Shown piece by piece: positions 389 to 39,958 of a stretch of DNA of 40,223 bases. The notes beneath the pieces are model-generated. The model had not been told where the DNA came from. It saw nothing but the letters and a program-made list of their open reading frames with translations, and did not search any database. The stretch's first letter is position 1; each line of letters begins with the position of its first letter. A program made the position numbers and the translations under genes. The stretch comes from a virus, in IMG/VR virus record IMGVR_UViG_3300042876_000240, positions 1 to 40,223 of that record. One strand, 5' to 3'.

Positions 389-900
389 GCGACACGCCTC
401 AACCCGCCCCCTCCCCTGATGGATGGGGGCAACCGCCGACCATTGAACAAGGGCGGGTGTACGAGGTTGCCGCCCCATTCATTCGGGTTGTCGCGTCGCG
501 GTATGAAGAAGACGAAGACGGCAGGGGGACGCTCTTTTTCGCATCATGGCGTCCCGGCGTCCTTTATGAATGCGCTGGGCCATACGGTGACGACACGCGC
601 GCCTACTGCCACGGCGTTGGTAAAGCCATTTTTCGTTGCGTGTCCATCGCCACGCTGCCGCGCCCTTACCCTGCGCGGGTTTTCTTTACTAGGAGCTTCA
701 TCACTCCGGATAAGAAGGCTTTCGGCAAGCAGACGCTGCGCCTAACCACCGTCCCGGCCTTCCGGCGGCGCATCAGCGGATGGGGTCAGCATTATGAAGT
801 GGAGCCGATGCCCGACGACGACGTTCGCGCCATGGTCGAGCAGGAACGCGCTCGCTTCTACGTTTCTCCCCTCCCTCCCTCCCTGGAGCCCACGAGATGA
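385..900 (+). CDS. hypothetical accessory protein (171 aa)
   Basis: A 171-residue soluble protein with a mixed hydrophobic pattern, several aromatic residues (GTLFFASWRPGVLYE, ARVFFTRSFITPDKKAFG) and no membrane segment. It starts at an ATGA overlap preceded by CCGGAGCCCACGCC and ends with EPTR at the next junction, where its TGA overlaps the following ATG. It is the largest gene of the left accessory series. I do not recognise a domain. Confidence 0.65.
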   Translation: MSDTPQPAPSPDGWGQPPTIEQGRVYEVAAPFIRVVASRYEEDEDGRGTLFFASWRPGVLYECAGPYGDDTRAYCHGVGKAIFRCVSIATLPRPYPARVFFTRSFITPDKKAFGKQTLRLTTVPAFRRRISGWGQHYEVEPMPDDDVRAMVEQERARFYVSPLPPSLEPTR

Positions 901-2978: not shown

Positions 2979-3270
2979 CAGAGAGAAGATCATTGAGGCG
3001 ATGGCGAAGGCGATCGCTGGGGCGCAAGGGTACTCAGCCGACAACTGGCGAGGTTTCTTCTATACCGCCCGCGCCGCCCTCTCCGCTATTGAGGGGATGG
3101 GATGCGTGGTGGTGCCGAGGGAAATTGACGACGGGACTGCCGAGGCGATTTGGGCAGGCGCTTACGGTGAATGGGCGGAGTTCGGCGCTTCTGACAAGGA
3201 TGGAGGCCGCGCCGCTCATCGAGCAGCTATTGCCGCCTCCCCCTTCGCGAAGGAGACGAGCGATGGATGA
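2971..3270 (+). CDS. hypothetical protein, first of a tandem paralogue pair (99 aa)
   Basis: It opens MTDREKIIEAMAKAIAGAQGY, closely matching MDDREKQIEAIARAVCRAHGY of the next gene, so the pair arose by tandem duplication. A second block, FFYTARAALSAIEGM, matches the pattern in which VYVHAATAAHAAVAPLI follows downstream. The ATG at 2971 overlaps the previous gene by eight bases and follows GGACCCGCCC. The function of this family of short phage proteins is unknown. Confidence 0.65.
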   Translation: MTDREKIIEAMAKAIAGAQGYSADNWRGFFYTARAALSAIEGMGCVVVPREIDDGTAEAIWAGAYGEWAEFGASDKDGGRAAHRAAIAASPFAKETSDG

Positions 3271-3571
3271 CAGAGAGAAACAGATCGAGGCGATTGCGCG
3301 GGCGGTATGCCGAGCGCACGGCTACGACCCTGACGAGCCCTCTATCAACGTCGATACGGGAGAAAGGCTCCCGTCTTGGCGCGTGTATGTTCATGCGGCA
3401 ACTGCCGCCCATGCCGCCGTCGCCCCTCTCATCCGAGCGGAGGCGTATGAGCGAGCGGCGAAATACCTTGAGGCCCAGCCAGACAACGGCATTTCGCATC
3501 AGGCGCTATGGCGTCACGCCGCCGCCATCCGCGCGCTAGGGGATTCCCCCTCGCCAGGAACTGAGGTATAA
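3263..3571 (+). CDS. hypothetical protein, second of the tandem paralogue pair (102 aa)
   Basis: The start at 3263 is chosen because MDDREKQIEAIARAVCRAHG aligns with the start of the preceding gene and AGGAGACGAGCG lies just upstream. It has a predicted helix-rich C-terminus (EAYERAAKYLEAQPDNGISH). It is the last gene of the left plus-strand series; the following 600 bases carry no convincing gene. Function unknown. Confidence 0.65.
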   Translation: MDDREKQIEAIARAVCRAHGYDPDEPSINVDTGERLPSWRVYVHAATAAHAAVAPLIRAEAYERAAKYLEAQPDNGISHQALWRHAAAIRALGDSPSPGTEV

Positions 3572-3599
3572 GGCGGCCGGCCGGTTGAGCTGACGATGG

Positions 3600-3960
3600 C
3601 AATAGGGCTTGTCCCTCGCCGGAGGCAAGTGGGGCAACCCCCCGGCATCAGGATCTCCGGAGGCTTCGGCTTCTGGCACTATTCGCCCGAAAGGGCAACG
3701 AGAAGGGTTGGACGCGGGTGCAAATCCCGCCCCGAAGGCGCAAGCCTTCGGGTGGCTGAGAAGCATAGGCGCAACCCGCCTGTATGAGCGCGGTTCCGAG
3801 GGGATGGGGTTCTATCCCGTCCGCGAGGCAACCTGATTAGGCCGCGCTCATACAGTTCATGCGGGCGGCACGGAAGGACGTGCGTTCCGAAGGCGGGCAG
3901 TCCGGTTGATCTGGACGTGGGGTCTCGCCAGCTGGTATCAAGCCCAGCCCCGCATGATCC
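3600..3960 (+). ncRNA. candidate large structured RNA, class unknown
   Basis: There is no convincing gene here, but stable plus-strand hairpins are packed end to end. GCCGG/CCGGC (3618-3622, 3642-3646) encloses GGGG-CAA-CCCC. An eight-pair stem with a TTCG loop spans 3657-3676, and GCCC-GAAA-GGGC spans 3685-3696. A five-pair stem with the seven-base loop TGCAAAT (3714-3730) resembles a tRNA T-arm. A nine-pair stem with a GCAA loop spans 3731-3752. A perfect 14-pair stem joins 3780-3793 to 3842-3855 and encloses GGGAT...ATCCC. GCACG...CGTGC spans 3868-3883. UUCG and GNRA loops appear only on the plus strand. The boundaries are guesses, and I could not assign a known family. Confidence 0.6.
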
Positions 3961-4021
3961 TTACAGACCTTACCCCAGTTTACCACGGGGCGCTATAATC
4001 GGCGCGCCTCCCTGAAACGGC

Positions 4022-4054
4022 AAAAAGCCCGCCGCCCCTTCCGGGACGACGGGC
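4022..4054 (-). terminator. Rho-independent terminator of the leftward late operon
   Basis: On the minus strand GCCCGTCGTCCC pairs with GGGGCGGCGGGC around a short CGGAA-type loop, followed by TTTTT. The two positions that are C/A mismatches on the plus strand become G-U pairs on the minus strand, so the fold belongs to minus-strand RNA. It lies about 110 bases past the stop of the last late gene at 4167. Confidence 0.85.
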
Positions 4055-4166
4055 CTCGCTTGCTGTTCCGGCGAAGCGGGATACTCAGCCAGGATTCCGA
4101 AGATGGCTCTCCGTCGCTGTAAGATGCCCGGGCACGCCCCGGCGCGCTTGCCCTTCCGGGCGAAGA

Positions 4167-4769
4167 TCAGGGGCGGTTCACTCGCTCTTGCGCCTCGCGC
4201 GCCACGCGCGGGCCACGAGCGCGAAGAGCCAGATGTCGAGCACGATCGCGCCAGCCCAGAAGAGCGCCTTTAAAAGTCCCCCATCCCCCAAGAACGATAA
4301 GGCTGGCATACTGAAGGCCCGTCGCGATGTCAGTGTAAGACCAGCCGATGAGCGGGCGCGGCCTTGGCAGGCCAACAGGTATCACGCCTTTGTAGGCGAG
4401 GAATGCTGTCAAAACGATAACGCCGTGTAGCCCTGCCATCACCAGCGATGGCAGCCTGACGGATTCCCATAGGAGGGATATCAGAATCAGCGCTGCGAAC
4501 GTAGTGAGGTTCTTGATCGTGAGGTCAATGAGCGGATCGGCGGAGAACTTCCACGCGAGCATGGAAGCGACCCAGCCGGCCGCCATCACGCCCCATACGG
4601 GGATGAGGCCGGGCTCGCGCGTGCGGACGGCGTCAGCCCCCGCCGCGAGCAAGACGGCGAGAAACCACGCCGTCCAGACGGTCAAGCCGAGCCCGACGCT
4701 CGGCCCGATCCACGCATGATGCAGCGCGGCCAGGACCCCCGCGATGGGGAACGTGAGGAGCGCGATCAC
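4167..4769 (-). CDS. multi-pass membrane protein of the lysis region, possibly frameshifted at its end (200 aa)
   Basis: At least four hydrophobic segments are visible (IALLTFPIAGVLAALHHAWI, LTVWTAWFLAVLLAAGADAV, LTTFAALILISLLWE, LVMAGLHGVIVLTAFLAY). The start overlaps the upstream stop as ATGA. The last 35 residues in this frame are charged and arginine-rich. The +1 frame over the same bases gives a better membrane end (ALFWAGAIVLDIWLFALVAR) and stops at 4178. The switch could occur at the GGGGGATGGGGG stretch near 4280. As the last gene of the late operon, beside endolysin and spanins, it may act in lysis (holin or antiholin) or be an unrelated membrane protein. Confidence 0.65.
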   Translation of the reverse strand: MIALLTFPIAGVLAALHHAWIGPSVGLGLTVWTAWFLAVLLAAGADAVRTREPGLIPVWGVMAAGWVASMLAWKFSADPLIDLTIKNLTTFAALILISLLWESVRLPSLVMAGLHGVIVLTAFLAYKGVIPVGLPRPRPLIGWSYTDIATGLQYASLIVLGGWGTFKGALLGWRDRARHLALRARGPRVAREAQERVNRP

Positions 4770-5928: not shown

Positions 5929-6695
5929 CACGCATCCTCCCCCGCACCGCGCCACGGCAGCGGGCGGCCGGCGTCATCCCAGCGGCGATAGAGCGCATAC
6001 CCTGCGCTGGCGAGGATCGTGACGCCGAGCGCGAGGCCGATCCATGTCCCGGCGCTGATATGCGGCTCCGCCGTCGTCAGGGCCTCTTGCGCGCTGCCGA
6101 TCGCGACGCCAGCGCCGCCGAGGCCGGCCACGCCCGCGCCCTGCGCCGTGCCTGACTGGCGCAACTTCTCGCGCGACCGCCCGACCTTCTGCGGCATGGC
6201 CCCATAGATCGGTTCGTCGCTGTCATGGCGGCCGTTGAAGTTCGCGTCCTGAATGCCCTGGTACGCCAGCGCTTCCGAGGATCGGCGGCGCGTCAGGCCG
6301 GGCAGCGCCTGCCGCTTGCCGGCGACCTTGGCCTTGTTCCACAGCGCGAACGCGCCGGCCGCCTGCTCGTCCTCCCGCCGGTTGAAGAACTTCAGCACCG
6401 ACGATCTGGCGAACGCGCCAAGCCCGATGTTGAAGGCGAGCGACACCATGGCGTCGAACTGCCCCTGTGTCGGCTCCCGCTTCAGGAGCTTCCGAACGCC
6501 GGGCTCGTATTCCGTGGCGAGGAACTGGCGGAACATCCTGAAAGCTTCCTCGCGCGTGATCCGGCGGCCGGGCCGCGCCTCGGAGCCCGTGACGCCGATG
6601 CCGATCGTGAGCACGCCCGCCGGGCAGCGGTAGGTTTCAAGGCGCACGCCTTCAAAGGCCGCGATCATCTTGCGGCCAAAATCCGAGGTGTTCAT
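5928..6695 (-). CDS. endolysin, GH24 lysozyme with C-terminal membrane segment (255 aa)
   Basis: It degrades peptidoglycan at the end of infection. Residues 1-150 fit the T4/P22 lysozyme family: the catalytic Glu15 lies in AAFEGVRLETYRCPAG and is followed by TIGIGV; further on come ARSSVLKFFNRRE and the family signature LWNKAKVAGKRQALPGLTRR. The position of T4 Asp20 is Cys24, and Thr30 corresponds to Thr26. Residues 151-210 form a low-complexity linker, and about 215-236 are one hydrophobic segment (WIGLALGVTILASAGYALY) with a basic tail. There is no signal peptide, so release should need a holin. AAAGG lies seven bases before the ATG. Confidence 0.88.
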   Translation of the reverse strand: MNTSDFGRKMIAAFEGVRLETYRCPAGVLTIGIGVTGSEARPGRRITREEAFRMFRQFLATEYEPGVRKLLKREPTQGQFDAMVSLAFNIGLGAFARSSVLKFFNRREDEQAAGAFALWNKAKVAGKRQALPGLTRRRSSEALAYQGIQDANFNGRHDSDEPIYGAMPQKVGRSREKLRQSGTAQGAGVAGLGGAGVAIGSAQEALTTAEPHISAGTWIGLALGVTILASAGYALYRRWDDAGRPLPWRGAGEDA

Positions 6696-30831: not shown

Positions 30832-30920
30832 GCAGCCCTCTCTGGCTGGGCGGGGGTGGGAAGGGCGTTGAAGAAGTCCGGGCGGAGCGCTTCAGCGGGG
30901 GAAGGTGATTGAGGGGTCAT
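30828..30920 (-). CDS. micro-protein linked on both sides by ATGA overlaps (30 aa)
   Basis: A 30-residue frame (MTPQSPSPAEALRPDFFNAL, then PTPAQPERAA) whose ATG overlaps the HNH-AP2 stop and whose TGA overlaps the next ATG, each by four bases. It fills the gap exactly. The peptide is Pro/Ala-rich with no membrane segment. It could be functional or serve chiefly to pass ribosomes from one gene to the next. Confidence 0.55.
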   Translation of the reverse strand: MTPQSPSPAEALRPDFFNALPTPAQPERAA

Positions 30921-31447
30921 GCGGCTGACCGGCTGAGTGCGGCTTGATAGGCGTTGGCAGCGGCTTCTTCGCTACTGAAGCGGCCAAGATAAATTTGCCT
31001 GCCGCCCAATCGGATGCGGGCCATAAACAGGGAACTGCCCGGAACCCGGCTGTAACCCTTGCCTCGCCTTTGCCCGGCCCTCCGAGGCTCTTCGCCAGGT
31101 CGATGATAGTAGCAATTGCGAGAATTCTCGGCGCGAGTGCAAACCCGAAGGTTCAAGCGGCGGTTGTCCATCGTGTTGCCGTTAACGTGGTCAACAACCA
31201 AATCCGCAGGCGGCCCCGCAATCTCTCGGTGCAACCGCCAATGGCCCTTCTTCCCGTCAGGGAGGGTGCTTGTGCGTGCGGCATACCACGGGCCAGAAAC
31301 GCCGCCGCTTTTCAGGGCATACCAATTCCATTGGCCGATATGCGCCGCGTCAGCAGCATCGATGATCGCCACAAACCCTCTGGTCAGGGTCACAAATGCA
31401 GCATCACCGTCAATTCGAACTGGGCGAGGCTGAGGCTTCCTGCTCAT
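30917..31447 (-). CDS. HNH endonuclease with C-terminal AP2 DNA-binding domain (176 aa)
   Basis: The HNH core reads HREIAGPPADLVVDHVNGNT followed by MDNRRLNLRVCTRAENSRN, with the paired His and Asn residues. The AP2 domain is GYSRVPGSSLFMARIRLGGR, then QIYLGRFSSEEAAANAYQAA. This is the standard free-standing phage HNH-AP2 homing-type endonuclease, first of three in the window. It is the second gene of the leftward operon, ATGA-coupled to the Cro-like gene. Confidence 0.88.
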   Translation of the reverse strand: MSRKPQPRPVRIDGDAAFVTLTRGFVAIIDAADAAHIGQWNWYALKSGGVSGPWYAARTSTLPDGKKGHWRLHREIAGPPADLVVDHVNGNTMDNRRLNLRVCTRAENSRNCYYHRPGEEPRRAGQRRGKGYSRVPGSSLFMARIRLGGRQIYLGRFSSEEAAANAYQAALSRSAA

Positions 31448-39343: not shown

Positions 39344-39958
39344 ATGGCAGACAAATCAGAATGCGAACTTTCGGCTCAAAAGGCCGGAACGCCAGCCGAA
39401 CAGAGCGCAAACGTGAAAAATGGATTGAGCATCGCAATCCATAAAACGCGGAATGCGCTTCGGCCAATTCGGCGCATCGGCGACATCGCAGAGGTGCCAC
39501 TGAGCAATGGCAGTGTGGCTGTCATCGACGCAGCCGACATCCCGTTGGTCGAAATGCGGAACTGGACGCGCTCTTGTCCGCAGAGGCGGCAAAGCTACGC
39601 CTTTTGCAGACTGTACAAGGACAAGAAGTCAATTCGTCTTACGCTTCACGGCGTGATCATGCAGCCCCCGCCTGGATATGTAGTGGATCATATTGATGGC
39701 GATGGGCTGAACAATCGTCGGCTGAACTTGCGCCTTGCCACCCTTGCGGAGAATGCGCGCAATCGGCGGCTCGATGTTGACAGCCGGTCTGGGCTCAAGG
39801 GCGTCACCTGGCACAAGAAGGGACGTAAGTGGAATGCCCGCATCAATGTTGGCGGGCAGATAATGCATCTTGGCCTTTTCGAAACTGCCGATGCGGCGCA
39901 CGCGGCCTACATGGAAGCGGCGAATTTTCATTTCGGCGAATTTGCGAGGGCAACATGA
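39344..39958 (+). CDS. HNH endonuclease with AP2 domain (204 aa)
   Basis: A polar N-terminal extension (1-40) is followed by a strand domain (IAEVPLSNGSVAVIDAADIP), the HNH core (LHGVIMQPPPGYVVDHIDGD, GLNNRRLNLRLATLAENARN) and the AP2 domain (GLKGVTWHKKGRKWNARINV, GGQIMHLGLFETADAAHAAY). Third HNH-AP2 gene; its HNH core resembles the copy at 30917. It has its own upstream TTAAC-rich region. Confidence 0.88.
   Translation: MADKSECELSAQKAGTPAEQSANVKNGLSIAIHKTRNALRPIRRIGDIAEVPLSNGSVAVIDAADIPLVEMRNWTRSCPQRRQSYAFCRLYKDKKSIRLTLHGVIMQPPPGYVVDHIDGDGLNNRRLNLRLATLAENARNRRLDVDSRSGLKGVTWHKKGRKWNARINVGGQIMHLGLFETADAAHAAYMEAANFHFGEFARAT

Follow-up and report, generated by a model that had tools for sequence, protein, structure and literature searches.

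A gene-free interval between two convergent operons

The IMG/VR virus record IMGVR_UViG_3300042876_000240 was analyzed over its whole length of 40,223 nucleotides (nt), which we refer to as the window. The record represents a phage of the temperate type, with genes for an integrase, a P22-like portal, a terminase, a scaffold and a major head protein, and a guanine-plus-cytosine (GC) content of 63%. A plus-strand operon of small genes stops at position 3571 and a long, convergent minus-strand operon stops at 4167. The last gene of the former (3263–3571, plus strand), recognized by its ATGA overlap with the preceding gene and by codon-position GC, encodes 102 amino acids of unknown function. A sequence-only reading of this DNA had described 3600–3960 as non-coding. 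This holds for the wider interval 3572–4166, with the upstream gene end corrected to 3571: there is no credible gene, and the open frames lack the codon-position GC pattern of the adjacent genes. As discussed below, several separate RNA elements form a non-coding array at 3572–3957 (plus strand). The one at 3859–3955 (plus strand), here RNA A, is almost certainly a member of a new and widespread phage RNA family with transfer RNA (tRNA) architecture, no encoded CCA, and a variable domain, V, where the anticodon arm would be.

No gathering-level match to Rfam 15 was found in the whole record and nothing credible at an expect value (E) ≤10 in the interval 3572–4166, and ARAGORN predicted neither a tRNA nor a transfer-messenger RNA (tmRNA) in the record. 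The locus thus has the undescribed character that the sequence-only reading had claimed for a structured plus-strand RNA. Its claim of a hairpin density beyond chance also stands: the 361 nt of 3600–3960 fold on the plus strand at -178.4 kcal/mol versus -155.6 ± 5.9 for shuffled sequences (z score -3.84, beating all 100 shuffles), and the minus strand is less unusual (z -2.75). Since the DNA is GC-rich, the fold score proves little by itself, and homologues were therefore sought. The strongest conserved RNA is the one at 3859–3955, which had been listed merely as further hairpins. Its fold reaches only z -1.3 against shuffles, and thermodynamics alone would have missed it.

Homologues and covariation of RNA A

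When the interval was compared as plain DNA with phages, plasmids and 44 related viral records, the only usable result was a 21-nt match in one record, G002. Protein-anchored scans with the neighboring genes found no relatives (one query was out of frame relative to the true gene at 3263–3571). Among relatives gathered from IMG/VR by portal protein, G002 is the nearest usable one (49% portal identity). Its match, on the opposite strand, is found at the equivalent position directly after the lysis genes, and proved to be an RNA A homologue. The window hairpins GCAC-GGAAGGAC-GTGC and GCTGG-TATCAAGC-CCAGC correspond to GCGT-GGAAGGAC-ACGC and GCCGG-TATCAAGC-CCGGC in G002, i.e., the loops are identical and the stems are compensated.

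Used as a spaced pattern, the two loops collected 58 stretches in IMG/VR and 46 in bacterial genomes; an exact-loop pattern of this kind inflates the apparent loop invariance. The full structure is present in nearly all of the 58 IMG/VR stretches (~55 phage loci) and in ~10 of the 46 bacterial ones. In addition, consensus BLAST identified RNA A in Caulobacter phage DMCA, Komagataeibacter phages phiKX1 and phiKX2, Pseudanabaena phage Pan3 and Acidovorax phage AP1, and none of these five records annotates a feature over it. In all, RNA A was recovered from ~60 distinct phage and prophage loci. The IMG/VR hosts are mostly unknown. Ten bacterial genomes carry one to three copies each, and 6 of 150 genomes from the family of one carrier bacterium have RNA A. 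Because terminase or other phage genes lie near several loci where this was tested, the bacterial copies look like prophage genes.

With the window and G002 both left out of its construction, a covariance model recovers 3859–3955 (plus strand) with 67.9 bits (E 8.7e-15). The same model finds members that the pattern did not collect (DMCA, Pan3, phiKX and AP1, i.e., L205–L209, as well as L240, L253 and L217). A second match in the window, at 608–664 (minus strand, 17.5 bits, E 0.09), was taken as chance. In the 17-pair structure, 97.8% of the helix cells in 58 aligned sequences are paired versus 77.2% after shuffling, and 14 of the 17 pairs show double-sided changes, in 190 cells versus 44.5. 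The signal is destroyed when the partners are slid by 1–3 columns. At P1, P2 and P4 the pairs of the window copy depart from the consensus and still pair. Compensatory stem changes, which the sequence-only reading had named as the check on its RNA, are thus overwhelming in RNA A, and likewise in a second element of the array, element C (see below).

Judged by sequence comparison, RNA A is a new, widespread phage RNA family common to dozens of unrelated phages. Its novelty is based on the lack of an Rfam 15 match, the missing annotation in the phage records and literature searches that returned nothing on it, their coverage of RNA-discovery papers being partial.

Some loci hold more than one copy. 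The Pseudoroseomonas contig L176 has two diverged copies (495–597 and 6233–6332, both minus strand), one with the T-loop UUUCGAGU. In a Bordetella trematum prophage (G047, L284), two copies lie ~100 nt apart on one contig in what looks like a duplicated RNA array, where long, nearly repeated outer stems (CCATCAAG.../...CTTGATGG) enclose several elements and an apparent tRNA-Arg gene is near.

Architecture of RNA A relative to tRNA

From 5′ to 3′, RNA A consists of P1, a C-R linker, a D-arm-like hairpin, V, one conserved A, and a T-arm-like hairpin that runs without a gap into the second strand of P1. When the window copy is folded by itself, exactly this four-arm cloverleaf results. The acceptor-like P1 pairs 3859–3865 with 3949–3955, and all seven pairs covary in the 58 sequences. 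Its consensus length is 7 base pairs (bp), with positions 1–7 paired in 56–59 of 64 sequences and position 8 in 41. P1 is lengthened to 10–18 bp in 15 of 59 copies, and its outer three pairs accept any base pair. The linker CG (3866–3867) is placed like tRNA positions 8–9. It has the form CR, with R being G or A, in 59 of 64 rows, and spurious pattern matches are among the exceptions. The D-arm-like hairpin (P2; 3868–3883) has 5 bp, four of which covary, and the loop GAAGGA. In this loop and its variants GAUGGA, GGAGGA and GAUAGGA, which come from other search routes, GGA is kept and the part before it varies in length. The T-arm-like hairpin (P4; 3931–3948; 5 bp, loop UAUCAAGC), supported by covariation and loop variants, is stacked directly on P1. 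Its loop UAUCAAGC and the variants UUUCGAGU, UAUCGAGU and UAUCAAGU, likewise from other routes, keep U-C-R-A-R-Y, that is, the tRNA TTCRANY plus one base.

RNA A therefore shares with tRNA a 7-bp acceptor, a 2-nt linker, a D-arm with GG, a gapless 5-bp T-arm on the acceptor, a T-loop of the TTCRANY type and a location in tRNA arrays, and its D- and T-loop could touch as in the tRNA elbow. It differs from tRNA in its 8-base T-loop. It also differs at the 3′ end, where the strand 3949–3955 is not followed by CCA: CCA occurs after P1 in 3 of 60 copies, which is chance level, whereas CCA is encoded by all 22 tRNAs found in ten of these loci. Furthermore, V lacks the anticodon arm (5 bp with a 7-nt loop) that follows the D-arm in tRNA.

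In the window, V covers 3884–3930 and ends in the conserved A3930, and the fold gives it a middle arm (3892–3897 paired with 3924–3929). Across the family V is 34–63 nt, sometimes longer, without sequence conservation. A helix abutting the conserved A is its sole enriched feature (13.0 versus 10.2 ± 0.4 shuffled). A kissing contact between the T-loop and UUGA in V, present in the window and G002, was rejected as it is not conserved. In two loci V holds another tRNA-like sequence, i.e., a tRNA-like RNA nested in a tRNA-like RNA. The one in Pseudanabaena phage Pan3 (L206:4998–5158) has U8-A9, the D-loop AAACGGCAA and the T-loop TTCAAAT; the one in L228:599–785 is tRNA-Gly-like.

Transcription, tRNA arrays and neighboring genes

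In 11 loci a good-scoring sigma-70-like promoter has its -10 box ending 4–9 nt before P1 (Poisson ~8e-6 versus the density further upstream), which suggests that P1 starts at the transcription start there. The G002 copy lies behind the promoter TTGGTC-N17-TATAAG. The window copy has no such promoter just upstream and is for this reason probably transcribed by read-through from the plus-strand operon. Just 3′ of it, a TATAAT at 3994–3999 (plus strand) is a possible -10 box, antisense into the end of the late operon.

Other copies are packed among tRNAs and must be cut out there. In L138 RNA A lies in an eight-tRNA array on the same strand, between tRNA-Ser (1 nt away) and tRNA-Asp (13 nt), and it precedes a same-strand tRNA-Arg by 9 nt in L101 and a tRNA-Trp by 5 nt in L176. 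The tRNA association that the sequence-only reading had suggested is thus found in the relatives of RNA A. The base preceding P1 is most commonly U (29 of 60), which fits RNase P cleavage without proving it. A role of P1 as an intrinsic terminator was rejected, as a T-run follows in a few copies only.

Relationship to other structured RNAs

Several known RNAs resemble RNA A in part. tmRNA, too, has a tRNA-like end with a large insert replacing the anticodon arm. However, RNA A has a proper D-stem, no alanine-acceptor sign and, with 34–63 nt in V, little room for a tag frame, and the tmRNA models of Rfam and ARAGORN do not match it. A phage tRNA cluster in the neighborhood of RNA A includes an ARAGORN prediction of a permuted tmRNA with tag frame (L119:6995–7445, minus strand). 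YrlA is a bacterial Y RNA that mimics tRNA, including contacts between D- and T-loop, and is bound by Ro60. RNA A would likewise be a non-coding tRNA mimic with such loop contacts, but has no match in Rfam, a library that includes the YrlA model, and Ro60 (TROVE) is not among the 25 of 36 Pfam families listed for 141 neighbors of RNA A.

By setting, the nearest known RNAs are RNAs C and D of phage T4 (species 1 and 2). They too come from a phage tRNA cluster, are stable and have no known function. T4 rnaD begins 1 nt from tRNA-Arg, and rnaC has a T-arm. Against T4 the RNA A model, with filters off, reaches at best 4.8 bits (E 7.4), and this match is not at rnaC or rnaD. The skipping-rope (RF02924) and DUF3800-VIII (RF03075) RNAs are phage-associated small RNAs (sRNAs) of similar phage loci; neither model matches RNA A, and in L146 a DUF3800-VIII RNA lies ~100 nt from it. 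A weak Rfam match to a group II intron was rejected (16.5 bits versus the 49 required).

Other elements of the array

The three tetraloop hairpins of the sequence-only reading are present: a UUCG hairpin at 3657–3676, GCCC-GAAA-GGGC at 3685–3696 and the 9-bp CCCGAAGGC-GCAA-GCCTTCGGG at 3731–3752 (plus strand). So are its T-arm-like stem-loop GCGGG-TGCAAAT-CCCGC (3714–3730, plus strand) and its perfect 14-bp stem (3780–3793 with 3842–3855). Homologues of the GCAA hairpin, which is known from the fold, and of the TGCAAAT hairpin, seen in the sequence, were not found. Moreover, an alternative tRNA-like fold proposed around the latter (3665–3737) has no homologue support; the actual tRNA-like fold lies 140 nt further on.

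The GAAA hairpin belongs to motif B, ATTCGCCCGAAAGGGCAACGAG (3681–3702, plus strand). This motif was found in 43 viral stretches, often in phage non-coding arrays and in some cases directly 5′ of RNA A. In the window, L103, L109 and L148 the motif lies 5′ of RNA A, and RNA A is present in four new motif B stretches (E<1e-5). In L257 motif B shares a stretch with a skipping-rope RNA. A near copy, TTCGCCCGGAAGGGCAA, lies at 4148–4164 (minus strand), just 3′ of the stop of the last late gene, and is nearly complementary to 3682–3698; motif B therefore marks the 3′ end of both convergent operons. A minus-strand hairpin followed by T5 is present near 4023–4054, but the rule of the terminator scan did not flag it.

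The 14-bp-stem element (3780–3855) alone folds at z -6.5. Its conserved core, element C (CGGTTCC...CGCGAGGCAAC; 3786–3849, plus strand), has homologues in L217, L258 and L265. All 19 proposed pairs are 100% paired and 8 show double-sided changes, in four sequences only. The 8-mer that follows CGCGAGGCAAC (3833–3840) is self-complementary or nearly so, and its sequence varies (CTGATTAG, GTTGCAAC, TGACGTCA, TGTTAACA); it is a possible site for pairing between two RNA molecules.

In L109:11127–11450 (minus strand), 5′ of RNA A, there are two T-arm-like hairpins (GGTGGGTTCAAATCCCACT and TTCAGGTTCAAATCCTGAA) and GACAGGCCGGAAAGACGGCC. L149 and L229 contain similar GACAG...GAAAGACGGC modules, which suggests yet another RNA class. 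Collectively, RNA A, motif B, element C and their Rfam sRNA neighbors indicate that the window contains some members of a broader and largely undescribed group of phage RNA modules. Elsewhere in the phage record, two HNH endonuclease genes, both phrog_99, lie at 30917–31447 (minus strand) and 39344–39958 (plus strand).

Possible roles of RNA A

We suggest that RNA A is a trans-acting, non-coding tRNA mimic. In some copies transcription would start at the first base of P1, and in tRNA arrays tRNA-maturation enzymes would release the RNA, with an RNase P-type cut at its 5′ end. Its elbow would keep it stable and be recognized by a host factor that handles tRNA elbows. RNA A would not be aminoacylated, since it has no CCA and its acceptor is not constrained in sequence, and V would be the phage-specific working part on a tRNA-shaped scaffold. 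Identity and mechanism together are, in our judgment, somewhat more probable than not. Taken on its own, the mechanism (a stable uncharged tRNA mimic, matured by tRNA enzymes, with a phage-specific activity in V) is a tentative proposal that falls short of an even chance. A still more tentative extension is that RNA A is a natural phage tRNA scaffold within the wider module set, whose conserved uncharged body displays an RNA module exchangeable from phage to phage; this draws on L206 and L228, where another tRNA-like RNA sits in the place of the anticodon arm.

Several observations weigh against the proposal. RNase P processing and the elbow contact are both inferred. The Rfam tRNA model RF00005 does not match RNA A even at E ≤10, so its tRNA likeness is architectural, and the invariance of the loops is partly imposed by the collection pattern. 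No protein family is a consistent neighbor among the 141 sampled. No target can be read from the anticodon-like arm, which lacks a conserved sequence, and a pseudoknot in V is suggestive only (10.6 versus 9.4 ± 0.5). Moreover, V matches the DNA of its own phage no longer than shuffled sequence does (9.7 versus 9.6 nt), and an antisense role of V against that DNA was rejected on this ground.

If the elbow were itself the active part, RNA A would work as a decoy or inhibitor that occupies a host tRNA-binding factor, and V would be filler. The candidate targets include RNase P, a tRNA-modifying enzyme, a tRNA-targeting defence nuclease and the ribosomal E site. The conservation pattern speaks for such a role, as conservation is highest in the loops and linker, with the acceptor and V varying freely. 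We nevertheless consider it unlikely, as the enriched helix abutting the T-arm shows that V is not unstructured filler; in addition, anticodon nucleases, the best known tRNA-cutting defences, would find no anticodon in RNA A. The close packing with tRNAs in L138, L101 and L176, and the location between genes or RNA elements in arrays, would also be expected of a processing signal, i.e., a tRNA-like cis element without a function of its own that is cut to release neighboring RNAs or mRNAs, like organellar t-elements. This explanation is improbable: nothing upstream needs release in the 11 copies that start right at a promoter, many copies have no neighboring tRNA, and an elaborate V domain is kept. 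We likewise disfavor, as more improbable still, a riboswitch-like cis-acting leader controlling the downstream gene. A ribosome site and start codon do follow within ~40 nt in a dozen loci (e.g., L121, L130, L158 and L166), but within 60 nt 3′ of RNA A they occur in 11 of 67 copies versus 8.7 expected at random places. The next gene is often convergent, as in the window and G002, and no downstream gene is shared.

The sequence-only reading had suggested one large structured RNA and had compared it, without a match, to the ornate GOLLD and ROOL, which are non-coding phage RNAs near tRNAs. Several structured elements do follow each other here in a phage, near tRNA-type features. However, RNA A relatives occur alone behind their own promoter and element C occurs without RNA A in L258 and L265, which argues for an array of separate elements. 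RNA A is also ~100 nt long, versus hundreds for GOLLD and ROOL, and there is no Rfam match to any large RNA; we therefore regard a single large RNA as very improbable. Least credible is a functionless remnant of a decayed tRNA or phage attachment site (attP). Phages acquire tRNA genes, and the ends of tRNAs serve them as attachment sites; the tRNA shape of RNA A would fit such an origin. Compensatory changes in every helix across unrelated phages refute this explanation almost completely, the shared 8-base T-loop and long V are unlike any tRNA, and an integrase is among only 3 of the 141 sampled neighbors. The uncharged tRNA mimic with V as its working part thus remains our preferred explanation.

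Implications

RNA A occurs across phages of Proteobacteria and Cyanobacteria, is absent from Rfam and is unannotated in the published phage records that carry it. It bears on the old question of the purpose of stable non-tRNA RNAs in phage tRNA clusters, such as T4 RNAs C and D, and provides for this a defined family with models, promoters and cultured phages. Moreover, a non-coding interval in a phage can hold an array of several covarying RNA classes, here RNA A, motif B and element C, that standard annotation overlooks. Phages thus appear to carry a widespread, unnamed tRNA mimic that has neither the amino-acid attachment end nor the decoding arm of tRNA.
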